Part shown: positions 12,490 through 50,630 of the stretch, piece after piece
Numbering within the stretch: the first letter of the stretch is position 1
How the letters are laid out: each line of letters opens with the position of its first letter
Assembly (NCBI GenBank): GCA_003153315.1
Contig: PLYA01000077.1
Coordinates: 2,527-66,526 of the forward strand
Reading direction: 5' to 3'
DNA from: Bacteroidota bacterium
Lineage (GTDB): Bacteria > Bacteroidota > Bacteroidia > B-17B0 > Aurantibacillaceae
DNA: 64,000 nt
The notes under the pieces: model-generated
Told to the model about the DNA's origin: nothing
The model's input: only the letters and a program-made list of their open reading frames with translations
Databases searched by the model: none
Made by a program: the position numbers and the translations under genes

Positions 12490-12733
12490 AAAAGGTTACT
12501 GCGTTTTTACCATTTTTTGGGTAGCAAATATTTGTCCGTCTATAACAAGCGTATAACTATATGTGCCGTTGCTCAGGTCATTAGCATAAACATTTAGTTG
12601 TCCTTGTCCTTTAGTAGTAATGTTTACACTTTTTATTTGCTTTCCTAAAGCGTCATAAAACAAAATTTGTGCGCTGTTAGCGTTTTGCGGTATGCTGTAG
12701 GTAATAGCGGGTTTACTTTACTATAACCAGCCT
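12490..12733 (-). pseudogene. Orphan T9SS sorting-domain tails (two nested remnants)
   Basis: Immediately after the stop of the 274-aa gene the minus strand still encodes the end of other sorting domains. First comes RLVIVK-stop (about 12711-12733), the same tail as the NHL gene at 11062. Then, in another frame, ITYSIPQNANSAQILFYDALGKQ...TYSYTLVIDGQIFATQKMVKTQ-stop (about 12500-12705), homologous to the last ~70 residues of the S74 protein at 14811. Neither has a start codon or upstream domain. They look like leftovers of successive C-terminal replacements. A near copy lies at 13637-13878. Confidence 0.75.
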
Positions 12734-12734
12734 T

Positions 12735-13559
12735 TTACTTAACCACTACCATCTTTTTAGTAGCACTGGCATCGCCGTTTAGCTGTAAATTGTAGTAGTA
12801 AGTACCTGCGGGTATATCGCTGGTGCTAATTAGCAAACTATTAAAGGTATTATCTACCGTAAAGCGTTTTACCTCGCTGCCCTGTGTGTTATAAAATACA
12901 AGCTCACCTTTTGTAGTGCCTTGCGGCAAAGTATAAGGTATGGTAGTAGTATTTGCCGTAGGGTTTGGGTAAGCATTGCCAAGGCCTGTGTTTGTTGGGT
13001 GGTTTGCTCTATCTACAGCAGTAGTTAGCGTGCCCGCCAAACCCCAAACCTTTGCATCACCATTAGCATAACTAAGTATCATTTTTGTACCCGCAGTAGT
13101 ATTATATATACTGTATTGCTGCATAGGATTAGTTTGATAACCAGCTGCTATACCAGTATCAGAAAACAACAAAATGCCGTCTTCATTATAAATACCTGTA
13201 TAAAAAGAAGTAGTAGTTGGTTGCAAAGCAAACATAAATTCTATTTTAGGGTCTGTATTAAATAATGATTGGGAAAAATAAAGAAAGGCTGGAGCATCAG
13301 GTCCTAAACCAGGAGGAAAACTCGCAAAAGAAATTGTTTTTACCAAAGCGTGACTCATATCATAAATACTTATACTTTTCCCATGTCTGTTTATTCTTAC
13401 ATATTCATCCCCTAATAATTCAAAATTTACTATCATTAATTCATCCTCAGTACTCGTAACAGTAGAAGCACTATCATATTTGTGTTCAAAAACAAATGGT
13501 TGTGCTTTAGATTGTTGCATTATAAACAAAACAAAAAGCAGTATTAATATTGATTTCAT
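12735..13559 (-). CDS. T9SS-secreted protein of unknown function (paralogue A)
   Basis: A 274-aa secreted protein with signal peptide MKSILILLFVLFIMQQSKAQ. The middle has no recognised domain; it is beta-rich with segments such as FEHKYDSASTVTSTEDELMIVNFE and YVRINRHGKSISIYDMSH that are shared with the neighbouring 296-aa protein. The C-terminal ~75 residues form a T9SS sorting domain (PNPTANTTTIPYTLPQG to KKMVVVK). The last 57 residues are identical to those of the neighbour although the rest is only moderately similar, so the two genes are tandem paralogues. Followed by orphan sorting-domain remnants. Confidence 0.8.
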   Translation of the reverse strand: MKSILILLFVLFIMQQSKAQPFVFEHKYDSASTVTSTEDELMIVNFELLGDEYVRINRHGKSISIYDMSHALVKTISFASFPPGLGPDAPAFLYFSQSLFNTDPKIEFMFALQPTTTSFYTGIYNEDGILLFSDTGIAAGYQTNPMQQYSIYNTTAGTKMILSYANGDAKVWGLAGTLTTAVDRANHPTNTGLGNAYPNPTANTTTIPYTLPQGTTKGELVFYNTQGSEVKRFTVDNTFNSLLISTSDIPAGTYYYNLQLNGDASATKKMVVVK

Positions 13560-13636: not shown

Positions 13637-13878
13637 ATGATTATTGTTGTTTAATCATTTTTTGGGTGGCAAATATTTGCCCATCTATAACCAAAGTATA
13701 GCTGTATGTTCCATTGCTTAAATCATTAGCATAAACATTTAATTGCCCTTGTCCTTTAGTAGTAATGTTTACAGTTTTTATTTGCTTTCCTAAAGCGTCA
13801 TAAAACAAAATTTGTGCGCTGTTAGCGTTTTGCGGTATGCTGTAGGTAATAGCGGGTTTACTTTACTATAACCAGCCT
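13637..13878 (-). pseudogene. Orphan T9SS sorting-domain tails (second copy)
   Basis: Downstream of the 296-aa gene the same structure recurs: a RLVIVK-stop tail (about 13855-13878) and then, in a further frame, ITYSIPQNANSAQILFYDALGKQIKTVNITTKG...IFATQKMIKQQ-stop (about 13640-13850). It matches the copy at 12490-12733 almost throughout, with mostly silent differences. There is no start codon. The most likely origin is duplication of the whole gene-plus-remnant unit. Confidence 0.75.
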
Positions 13879-13879
13879 T

Positions 13880-14725
13880 TTACTTAACCACTACCATCTT
13901 TTTAGTAGCACTGGCATCGCCGTTTAGCTGTAAATTGTAGTAGTAAGTGCCTGCGGGTATATCACTTGTACTAATAAGCAAACTATTAAACGTATTATCT
14001 ACCGTAAAACGTTTTACCTCGCTGCCCTGTGTGTTATAAAATACAAGCTCGCCTTGGTTCGTACTTGGCGGTAAGCTATACGCTATAGTAGTTGTGTTAG
14101 CAGTTGGGTTGGGGCGCGGGTTGCCAATAGCAGCACCATTGTTTACCAAAGTGGTGTTTGCCCTATCTATAGCAGTAGTTAGTATGCCTGCCAAGCTATA
14201 CACATTTGCGTGTCCATCTGGGTAGCTAAGTATCATTTTAGTGCCAACAGGCGTATTATATATCGGGTATTGCTGTTCAGGTACATTAACCTGTATTAGT
14301 GGATATGCTGAATCGGCATAAAAAAGCAAAGTACCATCCTCTTTATAAATACTGGTAGTGCCAATATCTGATACATCAGCACCCAAATACATAAACTCTA
14401 TGGCAGAGTCTGTATTAAACAAATGCTCCGACAAATAAAGAATTACAGGTGCGCTTGGAGGTTGAGGAAGACCCGCGTAAGAAATATTTTTAACAAACGA
14501 ATGGTTCATATTATAAATACTAATTAGTTTACCCCATTTATTTATTTTCACATATTGATAACCCGATACTTCAAAGTTTATTATCATCAACTGCCCTCCC
14601 GCACCATTTCCGCCTATATCGCCGCCCGTAGCCGCACTATCATATCTATGTTCAAATGTTATCTGAGCATGTGCGCTTATTGTTGCTAAAACAATAATAA
14701 GGGTTATATATATTATTCTTTTCAT
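13880..14725 (-). CDS. T9SS-secreted protein of unknown function (paralogue B)
   Basis: 281 aa from the ATG at 14725 (MKRIIYITLIIVLATISAHAQ, a signal peptide); the track's 15 upstream residues are rejected. The middle resembles paralogue A (FEHRYDSAATGG, LMIINFEVSGYQYVKINKWGK, YNMNHSFVKNISY) and is not a named domain. The C-terminus is a T9SS sorting domain (NPRPNPTANTTTIAYSLPP to KKMVVVK). Its last 57 residues are identical to those of paralogue A, with about eight differences at the DNA level, all silent by eye. Probably a cell-surface or secreted protein of unknown role. Confidence 0.8.
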   Translation of the reverse strand: MKRIIYITLIIVLATISAHAQITFEHRYDSAATGGDIGGNGAGGQLMIINFEVSGYQYVKINKWGKLISIYNMNHSFVKNISYAGLPQPPSAPVILYLSEHLFNTDSAIEFMYLGADVSDIGTTSIYKEDGTLLFYADSAYPLIQVNVPEQQYPIYNTPVGTKMILSYPDGHANVYSLAGILTTAIDRANTTLVNNGAAIGNPRPNPTANTTTIAYSLPPSTNQGELVFYNTQGSEVKRFTVDNTFNSLLISTSDIPAGTYYYNLQLNGDASATKKMVVVK

Positions 14726-14810: not shown

Positions 14811-16856
14811 TTATTGCTTAATCATTTTCTTGGTATCAATCACCTTGCCATCCACAATTAGAGTATAACTATACATACCACTGGTTAAATCATTAGCATA
14901 AACATTTAATTGCCCGGCTCCAAAAGTTGTAATAGTTACGCTTTGTATTTGTTTGCCGTTTATATCGTAAAACAGTATTTGTGCAGCGTTTGCAGTTGAA
15001 GGAATATTGTAGGTAATAACCGTTTGTTCTGCAAACGGATTCGGCTGATTTTGGTTAAGTACTACCACATTGGCATTGCTTAGCTGTACATTAATATTAT
15101 TTATGCTTGTGGCATTTGCAGGTGTGCTATTAGTGCCACCTGTATTAATACCATTGTTTTGCATTTGGCGTTGTCCTGCACCTTGGGTAACACCCATTAA
15201 ACTATCTACTTTATGGCTAAGCTCTTGTACAGCTTTTACCAAAGGCACAACAAATTCAGCATAATTTATTGCATAACTGCTTACATTAGAATCAGCAGGA
15301 ATACTTACAATTGTTGAGCCAAATCCATTTTGCGATTTTAAGATATTTGCAACTTCTTGTGCAATAAAACCGGATTGTTTTATGTTTGCATTAGAAGTAA
15401 AATCTATTCCTGCTTTGTGTTTTGTTTTAACACTATCAGGCATACCCTGAATAAGAAAATCATCAAACTTTTCGGCATCTACATTATATGTAACAGGCCG
15501 TAATTTATTTATGAATGCTAAACCCTTTACGTTTTCGGTTATATTAGTTTTAAAACGTCCGTCGCTTCCTACATTATAAGAACCAAGAGGTGCAACATAA
15601 ACTTTATTAGCTGTAGTATTTCCAATCTGGGTTGTGCTTGCAGCCTGATTATTAATAGCTCCGCTACCAATGGCAGTTTGGTTGTTTAGAGTGGTACCAG
15701 ATGAAACATCAGCCTGATTACCTATAAGAGTGTTATTACTACCTGTGGTAAGATTTGTGCCCCCTGCGTAATACCCCATTGCCACATTAGATGCGCCTGT
15801 GGTAATAGTTGCACCTGCGTAATACCCAATCGCCACGTTACTGGTAGCTGATGTATTTGATATATTTGATAAGGCATAGAAGCCCATAGCAGTATTACTA
15901 GAGCCTGAACCATTTACCAAAGCCCCATGCCCTACAGCGGTATTATAGCTGCCCCCGTTGTTATAAAACATAGTAGCATAACCAACTGCTGTATTAGAAA
16001 CGCCATGAACATTGGTATAAAGCGTTTGGCTACCTAACCCCGTATTGTATGAACCATCGACATTACTAAGCATTGCATTCCATCCCATAGCGGTGCTATA
16101 ATTGGCTGTGTTGGCATTAAGAGACATATAACCAAACCCTGCACAACCTACGCCTATTGTATTTGAATAACCTGCCTCAAAACCAAAAGCACAGTTTTCA
16201 GAGCCAGTGGTGTTGCTATAAAGTGCTGAATAGCCAAAAGCGTCATTATTACCACCAGAACCACCAGGATAGCCACCAAGTGAGAGATTACCAAAAGAAT
16301 TATTAAAAGAACTTAAGCTATAAAATTGTGATTGCACCCCAAAAGCATTATTTTCACTACCACCTACATTTGAGGCTAATGCATTCGTCCCATAAGCATT
16401 ATTACCACCAAAAACATCGTCATTCCAAAGATTGAGCGCATTAGTCCCCACCACAGTATTATTACTTCCTTTTTGGTTAGTAGTAAGTGCACCAACGCCA
16501 ATAGCAATATTGCCAGAACCATAACCACTTACGGTAGATGCACCTGCTCCACAGCCAATATATACAACACCATTACCTAATCCTGCTGGTGTACTACAGG
16601 AAGTTGCATCACCACAACTAAAGTTGCTGGAATGAAATATGCCATTAACATCCAGTTTATAGTTTGGTGCCATTCCAATACCCACATTAGTTCCATTGTC
16701 TCGAATGGTGGAGTTCCCCACTATACTTGCGGCTGTAAATTTTGTTACAAAACCGCTTGTCCCGCTACCTGTGACAATTTGCGCAAAGCTGTTAAAAGTG
16801 CTTAGTGTTCCTGCAATCATAAGTACAAGATACACTGTTTTTGTAATTTTCTTCAT
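14811..16856 (-). CDS. YadA-head-like surface protein with S74 intramolecular chaperone and T9SS sorting domain
   Basis: 681 aa from the ATG at 16856 (MKKITKTVYLVLMIAGTLSTF, signal peptide). Residues ~100-430 are tandem left-handed-roll repeats of the trimeric-adhesin head type (NTAxGxxAL, GSxNTAxG). Then comes a Peptidase_S74 chaperone-of-endosialidase domain: GSDGRFKTNITENVKGLAFINKLRPVTYN with the Ser/Lys of the self-cleavage site, an insert, and SGFIAQEVANIL. A short coiled coil follows (VPLVKAVQELSHKVDSLMG). The protein ends in a T9SS sorting domain (NQNQPNPFAEQTVITYNIP to VIDTKKMIKQ). S74 domains normally fold trimers and cleave themselves off. It lies 66 bp after the 249-aa gene. Confidence 0.87.
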   Translation of the reverse strand: MKKITKTVYLVLMIAGTLSTFNSFAQIVTGSGTSGFVTKFTAASIVGNSTIRDNGTNVGIGMAPNYKLDVNGIFHSSNFSCGDATSCSTPAGLGNGVVYIGCGAGASTVSGYGSGNIAIGVGALTTNQKGSNNTVVGTNALNLWNDDVFGGNNAYGTNALASNVGGSENNAFGVQSQFYSLSSFNNSFGNLSLGGYPGGSGGNNDAFGYSALYSNTTGSENCAFGFEAGYSNTIGVGCAGFGYMSLNANTANYSTAMGWNAMLSNVDGSYNTGLGSQTLYTNVHGVSNTAVGYATMFYNNGGSYNTAVGHGALVNGSGSSNTAMGFYALSNISNTSATSNVAIGYYAGATITTGASNVAMGYYAGGTNLTTGSNNTLIGNQADVSSGTTLNNQTAIGSGAINNQAASTTQIGNTTANKVYVAPLGSYNVGSDGRFKTNITENVKGLAFINKLRPVTYNVDAEKFDDFLIQGMPDSVKTKHKAGIDFTSNANIKQSGFIAQEVANILKSQNGFGSTIVSIPADSNVSSYAINYAEFVVPLVKAVQELSHKVDSLMGVTQGAGQRQMQNNGINTGGTNSTPANATSINNINVQLSNANVVVLNQNQPNPFAEQTVITYNIPSTANAAQILFYDINGKQIQSVTITTFGAGQLNVYANDLTSGMYSYTLIVDGKVIDTKKMIKQ

Positions 16857-16922
16857 GTTTTTTTTGTTTTTATTTCCTTGCCTACTCACTTAACGGCTTT
16901 TCGGCTTACTCCGTTTATTTAT

Positions 16923-17672
16923 TTAAGCCAAATTAATGGTTATGCAATTGCACCATGGGCCCGATTTTTCGGGGTGCACCACATCATACCAACGGAAGAA
17001 GATATACATAATTTTACCTGCGTTTGCCAGCTTAAAATCGTAAGGAAACAACGCATGGGTATCTATGCCCTGAAACGGACAATCTTCAGGCCCTTTAGGC
17101 GGTGCGGGTTGCACCTGCCCTGCGGCAACTCTGTCAACAATATCCCAGCTAAACTGTGGTATTTGCCCATCGGGGCTGCTGTGTTTGGTAGCATCGTGGC
17201 TGGTTTTGCAGCCTATCAGGTAGGTGCAAGAGCCTTTTGGGGTAAGAGATACTATTATTTGTTCTAAGATATGGTTGCCTGCGGTGCGCGCAGTGGCTAC
17301 GGGCAATAAACCCAAGGTGCCGTGGTTAGTAACCGTAAATGCTGAATTGTACAGCACGTTTTCCTTATTCCAGGGGCGCAGTGTGTTTTTTAAAAATAGT
17401 TTTTTGGCATTGGTAAAAGCCGTTGTTTGCACGCTGGTATGTGTGCCCTTTACCGATACGGGCGCCCATTTGGCTTGCAAATCGGTAATGCCGGGCACTA
17501 CTTTGTTTGCCCAGCTATTAAGCGCTCTTGCCGAAAAGTACGGAAACCCATCCGGCGCGTTTCCGGTAGTTATAAAGGCATTTATTTGTGCTAAAAAATT
17601 GGCAAGCCACGTCATAAACGGGTGGTTAGACGTAGGGATACTGCTTTTGGTTTTTTTCTTTATTAGTCCCAT
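16923..17672 (-). CDS. Conserved 249-aa protein of unknown function (copy 1), next to 21-bp array
   Basis: Not recognised as a named family. There is no signal peptide or membrane segment, so it is probably cytosolic. Residues 15-130 look helical and polar (HPFMTWLANFLAQINAFITTG, TSVQTTAFTNAKKLFLKN); residues 135-249 look beta-rich and end HPEKSGPWCNCITINLA. From memory, unnamed Bacteroidota proteins of similar size share this plan, with an Ig-like C-terminal half ending in an RW...GPW segment; that is a weak recollection, not a search result. Five cysteines lie in the C-terminal half. A copy with 239 of 249 identical residues is at 36491. A 21-bp-period array begins 37-57 bp upstream, and a T9SS gene follows. 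Confidence 0.75.
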   Translation of the reverse strand: MGLIKKKTKSSIPTSNHPFMTWLANFLAQINAFITTGNAPDGFPYFSARALNSWANKVVPGITDLQAKWAPVSVKGTHTSVQTTAFTNAKKLFLKNTLRPWNKENVLYNSAFTVTNHGTLGLLPVATARTAGNHILEQIIVSLTPKGSCTYLIGCKTSHDATKHSSPDGQIPQFSWDIVDRVAAGQVQPAPPKGPEDCPFQGIDTHALFPYDFKLANAGKIMYIFFRWYDVVHPEKSGPWCNCITINLA

Positions 17673-17708
17673 GGTTTTTGTTTTTTTGAGGTTTATATGA
17701 AGTTATAA

Positions 17709-17918
17709 GTTGCCTTTTTAACATTTTTAGGGAAGGATAAACTAACTTGAGTGAAGGATAAACTATTTTTAGGTGAGGATAAACTAACCTGAGTGAGGGG
17801 TAAAGTTTCTCCGGTGAAGGGTAGAAAGTTTTTAGCGTAGCGTAGAAGTCTTAAAAGGTGGGGTGCAGAAACTAAACCGGTGTGTTTAGTAGTTAAAAAG
17901 TTGCGGGGGAGGATAGCA
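17709..17918. repeat. Array A: degenerate tandem repeat with 21-bp period (8 clear units)
   Basis: Units can be cut every 21 bp from 17730: GGGAAGGATAAACTAACTTGA, GTGAAGGATAAACTATTTTTA, GGTGAGGATAAACTAACCTGA, GTGAGGGGTAAAGTTTCTCCG and four more to 17897, with weaker units on each side. Phase is kept exactly while the bases drift. It lies upstream of the 249-aa gene on the minus strand. The minus strand is open over it (ORF 17693-18010, heptads such as SLSFTQVSLSFPKN), but the plus strand has stops in the same phase, and array B shows the reverse, so I do not call it coding. Confidence 0.85.
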
Positions 17919-18353
17919 GAGCCAGCAATAAGGCTTGCAGCCAATGCCATGATATTAGTTTCCGATGAATTGCTTAATATTAAAGATAAATACATCATTA
18001 TACTCGGCAAACGTAAACCATTTTGTAATGCAAGTCAAGCCAACAATTTCGATATTCTTACATATGTAAGAATAGATAGTTTTTTGTAAGCTTTTTTTAC
18101 CTTGGTTGATGGGCTTTTTAACCTCAATGTTAAATAATTGTTAAGTAAAAAACAGGGCATTTTTTATGCTGTTTTGCGTTAGGGGATTAGCTCAACGTTT
18201 TAGTTTTTTTTGTTTCGCAGAATGCCGAAAAGGCATTTGAAACGGAAATCCTTTTGCTGCGTGAGATTGCCGCGCTTCGCTCGCAATGACGGGAAGTAGC
18301 AAAAGATTGAAGTGGAAAGCCCGACGGTGGTAACCCACCGGAACGCCCAAAGA
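17919..18353. other. Intergenic region with palindromic repeat-like sequence, no gene
   Basis: From the end of array A to the stop of fahA no ORF has family-like features. The right part (18221-18340) contains three hairpins and wording of the kind that recurs between genes in Bacteroidota, including ATTGCCGCGCTTCGCTCGCAAT. The short minus ORFs in the track here are shadows of these palindromes. Confidence 0.6.
18247..18308. repeat. Palindromic repeat (REP/MITE-like hairpin)
   Basis: Outer arms AATCCTTTTGCT and AGCAAAAGATT pair with one bulge. Inner ATTGC (18266-18270) pairs with GCAAT (18283-18287) around CGCGCTTCGCTC. Short perfect hairpins flank it at 18221-18237 (AATGCC...GGCATT) and 18325-18340 (CGGTGG...CCACCG). 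This is a typical non-coding repeat cluster next to a 3' end. Confidence 0.6.
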
Positions 18354-34812: not shown

Positions 34813-36459
34813 TTATTCTACTACCAGTTTCTGTTTTTCTATCACATCTCCAATTTTAGCCATTACAAAATAAATGCCTTTAGTGTATTGAGATATATCA
34901 AGGTTAAACTCTCCGGCATTAGTATTTTGTACTTCATATATAGTTCTGCCTTGCATATCTATTATACGTATATATTCTGCCAAACCATATAAACCAATAG
35001 TTATATTATTATCACTAGGATTGGGATATACAGAAAAATTAGTAGGTAAAACTATGCCGCTAGAACCATCTATTGAAGGTTTAGCTATTCTACAGCAACC
35101 ACCACAACCACAAGATTGTGCAGTTACCTGTACTGTACTGGTATTTGTACTAAGACTAATACCGGGGTCATTAACGGTTACCGTATAAATTATAGGAGTA
35201 CTTGTATTGGTATAACTGCAAGTTGGTTGAGCACAGTTTGTACAGCTTAAAGCTGTTGAAGGTGACCAAGTATAAGAAAGACAGGAATATCCTGGGGTGC
35301 CGATAGTTACACCGGGATATCCGCAACAAGTTTGCACATTAACTTGATTAGGCCCCGCATTAGCAATAGCATAAATACTTACATAACGTATACGCTGATT
35401 AGCTTGATCTGCTATATATAAATTTGCCGAAGCATCTAAAGCTATACCTTGACCTAGATGTAATTCCGCAGATGTTGCTGCTCCGCAATCACCAGTAAAG
35501 CCTTGAGTAGCATAACCCACAAATTGGTTAATAATTCCCGAAGTAATAGTTCGTACACTTGAATACTGATAGTTTACAATGTATATAGTTCCTGCGGCAT
35601 CTATTTTTACATCGGTAGGTTCCCCTAATTCAGCAGCGGTAGCAGCACCACCATCTCCAGTATAACCATTTGTTCCGTTTCCGGCAAACGTACTTATAAT
35701 GCCCGATGTGTTAACCATGCGTATGCGGTTATTACCAGAATCCGCTATGTACATATTACCTGAAGCATCAAAACATACACCATCAGGGTCATTTAGTCCA
35801 GCAGCAGTAGCTTGCCCCCCATCTCCACTATAACCACCTGTAGTAGTATATCCGGCTATGGTACTTATAATGCCGGTAGTAGCAACCTTTCGTATACGAT
35901 TATTCACTTGGTCTGAAATATATAAATTACCTAAAGCATCAATGGTTACTCCCCACGGATAATTTAGTTCTGCAGCAGTTGCCTGCCCTCCATCTCCACT
36001 ATAACCTGCAGATCCGTTTCCGGCTATGGTGTTTATAACACCCGATGTATTTATCTTGCGTATGCGCTGATTCCAAGTATCAGCTACATACAAATTACCC
36101 GAAGCATCGAGAGTCATACTACTTGGTGCATGAAACTCTGCAGCAGTTGCTTGCCCTCCATCCCCGCTAAACCCTAATGTTCCATTGCCTGCAAAGGTAC
36201 TTATAATGCCAGTTTTAGTTATCTTGCGTATCCGATTATTCTGAGTATCCCCTATATAGATATTACCCGAAGCATCAACAAACACATGGTTAGGATAATT
36301 TAATGCTGCATTTACTGCAAAGCCCCCATCTCCGCTAAAACCTGCAGCTCCATCCCCTGCAATAGTATTTATCATGTGGTACAAAAAACGTGGAGGGAGC
36401 TGCGCATATCCCATGCATCCCGCAAGGCATAATGCTAAAATTAGTTTTGTTTTTTTCAT
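34813..36459 (-). CDS. Six-bladed NHL-repeat surface protein with T9SS sorting domain
   Basis: A 548-aa protein with a signal peptide (MKKTKLILALCLAGCMGYAQ) and six NHL repeats (INTIAGDGAAGFSGDGG ... GNIYIGDTQNNRIRKI), paralogous to the gene at 11062. After the propeller comes a beta-sandwich region with many cysteines (QTCCGYPGVTIG, CTNCAQPTC, SCGCGGCC; residues ~370-460) that the other NHL protein lacks, then a T9SS sorting domain (NFSVYPNPSDNNITIG to KQKLVVE). Likely a disulphide-stabilised cell-surface protein. It starts 31 bp after the second copy of the 249-aa gene, as the S74 gene does after the first. Confidence 0.88.
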   Translation of the reverse strand: MKKTKLILALCLAGCMGYAQLPPRFLYHMINTIAGDGAAGFSGDGGFAVNAALNYPNHVFVDASGNIYIGDTQNNRIRKITKTGIISTFAGNGTLGFSGDGGQATAAEFHAPSSMTLDASGNLYVADTWNQRIRKINTSGVINTIAGNGSAGYSGDGGQATAAELNYPWGVTIDALGNLYISDQVNNRIRKVATTGIISTIAGYTTTGGYSGDGGQATAAGLNDPDGVCFDASGNMYIADSGNNRIRMVNTSGIISTFAGNGTNGYTGDGGAATAAELGEPTDVKIDAAGTIYIVNYQYSSVRTITSGIINQFVGYATQGFTGDCGAATSAELHLGQGIALDASANLYIADQANQRIRYVSIYAIANAGPNQVNVQTCCGYPGVTIGTPGYSCLSYTWSPSTALSCTNCAQPTCSYTNTSTPIIYTVTVNDPGISLSTNTSTVQVTAQSCGCGGCCRIAKPSIDGSSGIVLPTNFSVYPNPSDNNITIGLYGLAEYIRIIDMQGRTIYEVQNTNAGEFNLDISQYTKGIYFVMAKIGDVIEKQKLVVE

Positions 36460-36490: not shown

Positions 36491-37240
36491 TTAAGCCAAA
36501 TTAATGGTTATGCAATTGCACCATGGGCCACTCTTTTCGGGGTGTACCACATCATACCAACGGAAGAAGATGTACATAATTCTGCCTGCGTTTGCCAGCT
36601 TAAAATCGTAAGGAAACAGGGCATGGGTATCTATGCCCTGAAACGGACAATCTTCGGGGCCTTTAGGCGGTGCGGGTTGCACCTGCCCTGCGGCAACTCT
36701 GTCAACAATATCCCAGCTAAACTGAGGTATTTGCCCATCGGGGCTGCTGTGTTTGGTAGCATCGTGGCTGGTTTTGCAACCTATCAGGTAGGTGCAAGAG
36801 CCTTTTGGGGTAAGGGATACAATTATTTGTTCTAAAGCAGTTCCACCTGCGGTGCGCGCAGTGGCTACGGGCAATAAACCCAAGGTGCCATGGTTAGTAA
36901 TGGTAAATGCCGAATTGTAGAGTACGTTTTCCTTATTCCAGGGGCGCAATATGTTTTTTAAAAATAGTTTTTTGGCATTGGTAAAAGCCGTTGTTTGCAC
37001 GCTGGTATGTGTGCCTTTTACCGATACGGGAGCCCATTTGGCTTGCAAATCGGTAATGCCGGGCGTTACCTTGTTTGCCCAGCTATTAAGCGCCCTTGCC
37101 GAAAAGTAGGGAAACCCATCGGGTGCGTTTCCGGTAGTTATAAAGGCGTTTATTTGTGCTAAAAAATTGGCAAGCCACGTCATAAACGGATGATTTGAGG
37201 TGGGTATGCTGCTTTTGGTTTTTCTTTTGGTTATTCCCAT
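36491..37240 (-). CDS. Conserved 249-aa protein of unknown function (copy 2), next to 21-bp array
   Basis: Paralogue of the protein at 16923 with ten differences in 249 residues, three of them at one site (TAGGTALEQ instead of TAGNHILEQ) and three in the first six residues. The DNA is about 96% identical in the part I compared. It has no signal peptide or membrane helix. The helical N-terminal half and beta-rich C-terminal half ending GPWCNCITINLA are described under copy 1. An array of 21-bp-period repeats begins about 55 bp upstream of the start, and a T9SS NHL gene follows on the same strand 31 bp later. Function unknown. Confidence 0.78.
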   Translation of the reverse strand: MGITKRKTKSSIPTSNHPFMTWLANFLAQINAFITTGNAPDGFPYFSARALNSWANKVTPGITDLQAKWAPVSVKGTHTSVQTTAFTNAKKLFLKNILRPWNKENVLYNSAFTITNHGTLGLLPVATARTAGGTALEQIIVSLTPKGSCTYLIGCKTSHDATKHSSPDGQIPQFSWDIVDRVAAGQVQPAPPKGPEDCPFQGIDTHALFPYDFKLANAGRIMYIFFRWYDVVHPEKSGPWCNCITINLA

Positions 37241-37296
37241 GATTTCCTGTTTTTATAGGTTTATTTTAACATTTAACTACTGAATTTAACATTTAG

Positions 37297-37506
37297 ATGT
37301 GTGCAGGTAGTATTTGTATGTGTGCGTAAAGTATTTCTATCCCTGCGTAAAGTTTCTGTATGTGCGCATAAAGTATTTCTACTCGTGCGTAAAGTTTCTC
37401 TACTCGTGCAGGAAGTTTCTAAATGTGCGCGTAAAGTATTTCTACTCGTGCAGGGAATTTCTCTGCTCGTGCAATTAGAAACTAAAAACGTGTGTATAGA
37501 AACTAA
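37297..37506. repeat. Array B: degenerate tandem repeat with exact 21-bp period (10 units)
   Basis: Ten units in strict 21-bp register, e.g. ATGTGTGCGTAAAGTATTTCT, ATCCCTGCGTAAAGTTTCTGT, ACTCGTGCGTAAAGTTTCTCT, ATGTGCGCGTAAAGTATTTCT. Weaker units precede it from about 37261. It shares with array A a 12-base core (GTAAAGTTTCTC) and the end section with AGAAACTAAA...GTGTGT, so the arrays are homologous, but their units have drifted far more than the adjacent genes. The plus-strand ORF 37301-37612 shows heptads (VFLSLRK-VSVCAHK) that follow from the 21-bp period; array A is open only on the opposite strand. Confidence 0.88.
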
Positions 37507-37537
37507 GCGGCGTTGTTTAACAAACGCAGGCGAAAGT

Positions 37538-37583
37538 GCGGATTGCGGATTGCGGATTGCGGATTGCGGATTGCGGATTGCGG
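37538..37583. repeat. Perfect heptamer tandem repeat (GCGGATT x 6.6)
   Basis: Six exact copies of GCGGATT and a partial seventh. Three heptamers make 21 bp, so this block keeps the same long-range phase as the neighbouring array. It lies between array B and the promoter of the S46 peptidase. The perfect identity points to recent slippage expansion. Confidence 0.9.
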
Positions 37584-37741
37584 AAGTTAAGAATCATATA
37601 ACAAAATTATAACTTATTTTGATACCGCCAAATTAAATTTACGTTAAGTTTTTTAGAAAAGATAGCAAATGGTTATGTCCGCTCCAACTTCATTAATCCC
37701 CGCTTTTTTACCATTGGTCGTTTTCAGGGTTGGGCGGATGC

Positions 37742-50034: not shown

Positions 50035-50191
50035 AATCTTTATTGTTTGGGCTTTCCCCCACCGCAGGTGGGGTTGGGCTTTACACGCTGCATGGCAGCT
50101 TGCTATCAAATGCCTTTTTGGTATTCAGCGATACCGATAAAAATAATAAAGACGCTAAGGGTAAAAAGGCAAAAATTGCTTGTTTTAGGGC

Positions 50192-50630
50192 TTAAATTTG
50201 CTTTTGGAGGTCATCGAATTGTTGCGGATTATCATCGAATTGTTTCGGATTAGCGTTGTTTCGTTTCTGGAGACCGTCGAATTCGTTCGGATTGTCATTG
50301 TTTCGTGTGGGGAACATCATTGTTTCGTTTCCGGAGACCGTTGTTTCGCTTCAAGACATCATCGAATTTGTTCGGATTGTCATTGTTTCGTTTCAAGAGA
50401 GCGTTGAAAGCGCTTGGAACACCGTTGAACTGGTTCGGGATAGCATTGAACTATGGGGGAACATCATTGAATTGTGAGGAATGCCATTGAATTGCTTTGG
50501 AAGAGCATTGAACGAGTGGGGGATATCATAGAATTATTTAGGATTATCATTGAATAAATTGGGAAGGATGTTGAACGAGTGGGGAACATCATCGAATTTA
50601 TGCAGATATTCATTTCTCTGCAAGAAGATG
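50192..50630. repeat. Array C: degenerate tandem repeat with 21-bp period (about 21 units)
   Basis: From 50213 the sequence can be cut in 21-bp steps: ATCGAATTGTTGCGGATTATC, ATCGAATTGTTTCGGATTAGC, GTTGTTTCGTTTCTGGAGACC, and so on to about 50630, with single units of 20 or 22 bp that shift phase by one. The loose consensus is ATTGAATTGTTTCGGATTATC. A weaker unit (TTAAATTTGCTTTTGGAGGTC) precedes it. It fills the gap between gmk and recX, ending 9 bp before the recX stop. Several plus frames are open, giving heptad peptides (ORFs 50198-50490), an expected effect of a 21-bp period. No start signal supports any of them. Confidence 0.9.

Follow-up and report, generated by a model that had tools for sequence, protein, structure and literature searches.

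Two genes for closely similar 249-aa proteins, each directly preceded by an array of 21-bp repeats, lie in the window, that is, the whole stretch of 64,000 nucleotides that was analyzed here. The question raised by this locus is whether array and gene belong together, and, if so, what reads the array. The features concerned are the following:

14811..16889, minus strand: downstream gene A, encoding a 692-aa protein with a Peptidase_S74 domain (Pfam); outside the conserved module
16923..17672, minus strand: gene A, an ORF for a 249-aa protein with a helical N-terminal half and an FN3-like C-terminal half (folds from models of a homologue and of its own sequence)
~17681..17885, minus strand: array A, ~9-10 degenerate units of 21 bp preceding gene A (repeat-lag analysis)
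18008..18038, minus strand: candidate promoter of the Bacteroidota type, TTG-N20-TACGTTTG, preceding array A (read from the sequence; the motif is generally enriched)
34813..36459, minus strand: downstream gene B, encoding an NHL/TEN_NHL protein with a T9SS sorting tail (Pfam); outside the conserved module
36491..37240, minus strand: gene B, an ORF for a 249-aa protein 96% identical to the gene A product
37241..37515 (alternatively from ~37230), minus strand: array B, ~11-13 units of 21 bp with 42- and 63-bp higher-order repeats (repeat-lag analysis)
37602..37632, minus strand: candidate promoter TTTG-N19-TAATTTTG upstream of array B (read from the sequence)
50140..50613, no strand assigned: orphan 21-bp array in the convergent intergenic region gmk/recX, without a 249-aa-type gene (repeat-lag analysis)

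Both 249-aa genes of the original prediction, each with a same-strand 21-bp array directly upstream, were recovered, and the lag-21 match of arrays A and B was at least 0.60, compared to ~0.37 in control upstream regions. The candidate promoter of the first locus lies upstream of array A, and array A would therefore be co-transcribed with gene A. The genes located 3' of genes A and B are on the same strand and both look secreted; however, a T9SS surface protein, which had been proposed for both copies, was found only in the NHL copy (Por_Secre_tail match, 4e-12), as Peptidase_S74 was the sole Pfam match of the S74 protein, which had neither a T9SS tail nor a YadA-head match. The array at 50140-50613 is a third one that the original prediction did not include; in four sister genomes, no array was seen at the recX locus, and gmk did not adjoin recX. 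Two other repeats were observed in the window, namely a perfect 7-bp repeat (TGCGGAT x 6.9, 7 being 21/3) at 37537-37584 just upstream of array B, and a 22-bp-period repeat, TTTACTTAACCACAACCAGCCT, shared by two neighboring short T9SS genes (12712-12759 and 13857-13904).

Homologues of the 249-aa protein were gathered by protein profile only, and their upstream DNA was inspected afterwards. Among 90 distinct homologue upstream regions, the strongest repeat lag (lags 10-59) was 21 or 42 bp in 79, so that the condition named beforehand as refuting the link, an array missing from most homologues, did not occur, and array and cytosolic protein are indeed the shared part, as had been proposed. A lag-21 match of at least 0.5 was reached by 68/90 homologues compared to 3/143 control genes (Fisher 3e-35), and the three control genes at this level are themselves near arrays. 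The arrays upstream of homologues have the same orientation as the gene and no period other than 21/42, with a median size of 13.7 units (IQR 11.3-15.6); the period is fixed at 21, and the unit sequence is almost free between arrays. In a separate set of named records, an array was present within 500 bp in 16/22 loci, and the six exceptions were from Paludibacter, Mariniphaga, other Bacteroidales and one unplaced Bacteroidota MAG. Four of them, L141-L144, have the array at a greater upstream distance, and the gene interposed between it and the FN3 gene is for a regulator: AraC-GyrI in L141 and L142, LytTR in L144 (Pfam), and a LuxR-type HTH on the other strand in L143 (identified by eye); L145 has a LytTR gene (Pfam) and no clear array, and in L153 the array is downstream of the gene.

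Arrays are abundant in the home genome, where twenty 20-kb stretches plus the window contained 24 lag-21/42 arrays and a single lag-20 array in 464 kb (~1 per 19 kb), a density that extrapolates to perhaps 200 arrays for the genome. Approximately half of them adjoin no recognized partner gene. Other carrier genomes have scattered arrays too, and a sister genome of the same genus without the 249-aa family had no array of lag 21/42 in 355 kb; this sister genome carries elsewhere two genes of a second family described below, of which the one fetched has an array. The home genome encodes no fewer than 15 complete or almost complete members of the 249-aa family, in addition to divergent and truncated ones. 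Of 396 genomes of the class with good completeness, 20 carried the family, and sampling 392 genomes across the phylum added two more carriers; its distribution is thus sporadic, yet multi-copy in carriers. Most of these genomes are metagenome assemblies, and the home assembly has 6.2% contamination.

The 249-aa proteins A and B had no match in Pfam, NCBIfam, PHROGs or PDB sequences. A structural model of the homologue L066, built from 44 homologues (m499affead832), had a pLDDT of 95.5, and a model from the sequence of the gene A product itself had a pLDDT of 71. Residues 121-231 of m499affead832 matched fibronectin type III (Foldseek E 8.8e-5; VIA Z ~11, rmsd 2.2-3.2), and the C-terminal half of the family, as modeled, is an FN3 beta-sandwich. 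The N-terminal half is helical and had no known match in searches with the whole protein. A match to a fold unrelated to nucleic acids had been named beforehand as counting against an array-binding role: this was found for the C-terminal half, FN3 usually being unrelated to nucleic acids, but not for the helical half, which is unmatched. Family members are basic proteins (median pI 9.2 compared to 7.1). No T9SS sorting domain was found in the 249-aa protein (Pfam, E<=1) or among 44 members, and no transposase match to the family was found. The N-terminal part of two large proteins (L100:3723-5301 and L137:466-2607) matches the helical domain of the family; TPR repeats are strong in the L137 protein and marginal in the L100 protein, and the L100 gene is divergent to an array-bearing gene of the 249-aa family. 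A 230-aa protein of a different sequence type that looks helical plus FN3 (L171:6023-6715) lies near a period-20 array.

Two home-genome arrays precede a different protein of 317-319 aa, whose N-terminal part is helical and which contains a CarboxypepD_reg domain. This second family was found widely in a class-wide search, and 33/50 distinct genes fetched had a 21-bp array upstream. Profile comparison revealed no homology between the two families (probability 1%, the second profile consisting of two sequences only). A phased 21-bp array and a partner protein from one of these two families of small proteins, encoded directly behind it, make up a real module that is widespread in Bacteroidota.

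The symmetry of the repeat unit differs between the two families. The unit is palindromic (dyad-symmetric) in 40/69 FN3-family arrays, the other 29 having no significant dyad, compared to 1/32 second-family arrays (Fisher p=4e-8), and within genomes carrying both families dyad symmetry was found in 0/18 second-family arrays. FN3-family units were palindromic more often than column-permuted controls, column permutation being the null of the dyad test and related arrays not being fully independent. Complementarity in these units peaks at offsets 6-8 from an odd axis, regardless of sequence (permutation p <1/5000); a bipartite plan of conserved and variable halves within the unit was not significant overall. 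Dyad symmetry was also present in arrays adjoining LytTR genes. LytTR proteins normally read direct repeats, and the symmetry thus tracks the FN3 family and not the neighboring regulator. These data indicate that array architecture follows the adjacent protein family, and this family-dependent symmetry is the main, indirect support for what may be an interaction between protein family and array.

The original prediction had further considered that the 249-aa protein binds the RNA of the array. Immediately 5' of the arrays, sense-strand DNA is enriched for the Bacteroidota promoter motif (25 vs 8, and 13 vs 2 for the complete motif), which was matched at only about a third of loci; from this enrichment, many arrays are probably part of a transcribed leader. 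Signs of selection for RNA hairpins were looked for and not found: complementarity between the arms of one unit was not above that between arms of different units (0.608 vs 0.597), G.U was not above A.C beyond composition on the sense strand, the sense strand was no more foldable than the antisense strand, and no Rfam match to an array was found. Furthermore, 21 bp corresponds to two turns of B-DNA. Together these results favor DNA sites; binding of array RNA is not supported, and an RNA hairpin array was set aside as the leading idea. Two Rfam elements were observed at family loci, Flavo-1 RNA (RF01705) adjoining a family array at L048:5314-5385 and a DUF805b element (RF02914) at L057:5024-5059. 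A coding heptad repeat was likewise rejected. The arrays have no consistent frame with the gene and stops in most frames; a stop-free sense frame was present in 27/69 FN3-family arrays compared to 11.2 expected from column-permuted controls, with no open-frame excess on the antisense strand (10 vs 13), and its frame relative to the gene was random (10/6/11) with no recurring start-to-stop pattern.

Control of the surface gene by the 249-aa protein, as also proposed originally, is unsupported, because the genes downstream vary in kind. The downstream gene was on the same strand in 47/69 cases, and among the downstream genes are those for T9SS proteins, purB, ribosomal protein L13 and isocitrate dehydrogenase; a Por_Secre_tail was found in the downstream gene in 5/14 cases in the home genome and 8/48 elsewhere, which is not general, and the T9SS gene is outside the module. 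On the other side of the arrays, LytTR/GerE genes were the far-side (upstream) neighbor in 13/60 loci compared to no more than 2/62 downstream, a count that is an upper bound (p=0.002). A LytTR gene was next to 7/60 arrays, plus two Bacteroidales loci, and small solo regulators of the LytTR, LuxR, AraC and XRE types often flank arrays.

Array letters change quickly under a fixed spacing. Similarity between arrays was at background (0.33) below ~75% protein identity, and arrays differed even at 89-96%. At the orthologous loci L119 and L081, the core CCGTACATATTTT recurs every 42 bp in both arrays, and the remainder is ~60% identical. Between L074 and L089, with genes 88% and flanks 90% identical, nearly all array letters have changed, and both arrays keep a stem-N4-stem plan every 21 bp; L116 and L117, which are 98% identical, differ by two units. 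The array may also outlast the gene. At L059:3645-4098 the array is kept and the gene is reduced to about its first 14 and last 31 codons, and at L057:3985-4735 a long array is followed by only the last 29-36 codons; both loci look like internal-deletion derivatives in which the array was retained.

The explanation that we consider best, and hold tentatively, is that the array is a phased DNA platform in the leader that is recognized by a complex of the FN3-family protein and tunes the gene behind it. The module would consist of this cis-acting platform and the gene directly behind, the platform, in most cases situated in the leader that separates promoter and gene, offering ~13 recognition sites exactly two helical turns apart, and therefore all on the same helix face. 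Either by itself or together with a partner, the FN3-family protein would recognize the sites as a two-fold symmetric complex, which would account for the palindromic units, and the CarboxypepD_reg family would use the same 21-bp rail without dyad symmetry. A filled array would probably repress or tune transcription of its own gene, that is, autoregulation by roadblock, and a solo LytTR, LuxR, AraC or XRE regulator beside the array may add an input in some lineages. Units would be gained, lost and homogenized, such that the letters change fast and in concert and spacing and symmetry are kept. Binding, the identity of the binder and autoregulation are what we infer from the arrays and their neighbors. 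In favor of this explanation are the position and the constant 21/42 period of the arrays, their family-dependent symmetry, the core and the stem-N4-stem plan kept between related arrays, the lack of RNA-type wobble and of compensation within units, the basic character of the proteins, the promoter motif upstream of arrays, the LytTR/GerE genes on the far side and the 21-bp step of LytTR sites. Against it, DNA binding is not usual for the FN3 fold, the helical half is unmatched, and the loss of array similarity below ~75% protein identity, with divergence of letters even at 89-96%, would be hard for a sequence-specific binder; the home-genome arrays that adjoin no recognized partner gene (about half), the 29/69 arrays with no significant dyad and the promoter matches at only about a third of loci also count against it. 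In a stricter form, which we regard as unlikely, each carrier genome would hold ~200 private DNA-protein pairs, each paralogue reading its own array, and the protein and all 13 units would switch specificity together and quickly; if true, this would be a self-addressing chromosomal system without known counterpart.

Other readers of the array have to be weighed against the FN3-family protein. The arrays could be operators of dedicated solo regulators (LytTR, LuxR, AraC or XRE), encoded adjacently or elsewhere, with the FN3 protein as the regulated product. The enrichment of regulator genes on the far side of arrays, the regulators between array and FN3 gene in Bacteroidales (L141-L144), the LytTR gene at L145, and the 21-bp step that LytTR sites share (PMC2766830) all fit this reading; however, most home-genome arrays have no regulator neighbor, the ~200 different arrays would call for a similar number of regulators, and the symmetry follows the FN3 family and not the class of regulator, and we regard it as unlikely. 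A general nucleoid protein that uses any 21-bp phased array, with the gene families as passengers, would fit the orphan arrays and the occurrence of constant-size, variable-sequence repeats in many bacteria (PMC8161180), but a general factor would not cause array symmetry to depend on the adjacent family, and this is the least probable of the alternatives. Only slightly less improbable is an array that acts as RNA, in which a leader or small RNA would form hairpins at 21-nt intervals and either bind the protein or control translation. Its location behind promoters on the sense strand and a stem-loop geometry that is kept as letters change are consistent with this, but the lack of own-unit compensation, of a G.U preference, of a foldability difference between strands and of an Rfam match argues against it.

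Array and gene might instead move together as a cassette, the second possibility raised originally, and in its selfish version the protein or a host enzyme would copy, expand or move the array, with orphan arrays and truncated genes as debris. Near-identical copies at dispersed sites, with homology that stops near the stop codon, support this proposal in part, as do the sporadic, multi-copy distribution, the density of ~1 array per 19 kb and the deletion remnants L057 and L059 (array plus last 29-31 codons). No transposase, defined ends or target-site duplication was found with the array-gene unit. No clean syntenic empty site was found in sister genomes at the sites tried, which is explained by their lack of synteny there, and a phage or plasmid origin was rejected as no phage or plasmid relatives were found. 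Different arrays have no sequence in common and are thus not copies of one element. A selfish cassette is distinctly unlikely, falling between the solo regulators and the RNA reading. A defense system was also considered, and PADLOC gave nothing convincing.

Several known systems resemble the leader platform proposed here in part. The binding sites of LytTR regulators are 9-bp repeats separated by 12 bp, which gives a 21-bp step (PMC2766830). Their operators (AgrA, ComE, SilA) are like the arrays in the direct repeats and the step, and LytTR genes flank some arrays; however, the operators comprise two repeats without dyad symmetry, whereas the arrays comprise ~13 units, mostly without an adjoining regulator. 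Iterons and ParR/parC-type centromeres are phased tandem sites beside the gene of the binding protein, often autoregulated. The arrays share with them the phased tandem sites next to a gene, whose product would be the binder here, but differ in that they are chromosomal, number up to ~200 different ones per genome, gave no plasmid or phage relatives when these were searched for, and adjoin a protein whose fold does not resemble that of Rep or ParR. Guide arrays such as those of CRISPR also lie upstream of a dedicated protein gene. A CRISPR-type array was nevertheless rejected because neighboring 21-bp units are alike along their full length and are not identical repeats with unique spacers; whole units drift together, and there is no nuclease. 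REP/RAYT systems consist of many palindromic elements per genome that are linked to a protein family. The 21-bp arrays are similar in these respects, but REPs, unlike the arrays, have sequence in common, and none of the matches found makes the protein transposase-like.

A close counterpart is a class of tandem repeats in bacteria, constant in size (20-23 or 52 nt) but variable in sequence, that Subirana and Messeguer called "enigmatic" and for which they suggested a spacing-sensitive protein or small RNAs (PMC8161180). For Bacillus they describe a short sequence that characterizes most arrays within a genome, and the accessible text makes no mention of a partner gene, upstream position, promoters or palindromes (PMC8161180); no report of a gene partner for such repeats was found in the literature accessible to us. 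These repeats and the 21-bp arrays are alike in a constant size of ~20-23 nt, in being mostly non-coding and numerous per genome, and in the absence of sequence conservation between arrays (0.33 background here). The 21-bp arrays differ in being tied to two protein families, with a fixed orientation and family-dependent symmetry. Repeats of constant size and variable sequence in bacteria are reportedly also the subject of a 2020 article by Subirana and Messeguer in J Bacteriol. With the present arrays, these enigmatic repeats gain candidate protein partners, a fixed position and a partner-dependent symmetry, and repeats of no known function become experimentally testable through a concrete protein partner. 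Furthermore, the fast, concerted turnover of letters under a fixed spacing makes the arrays a good system for the co-evolution of DNA-protein recognition.
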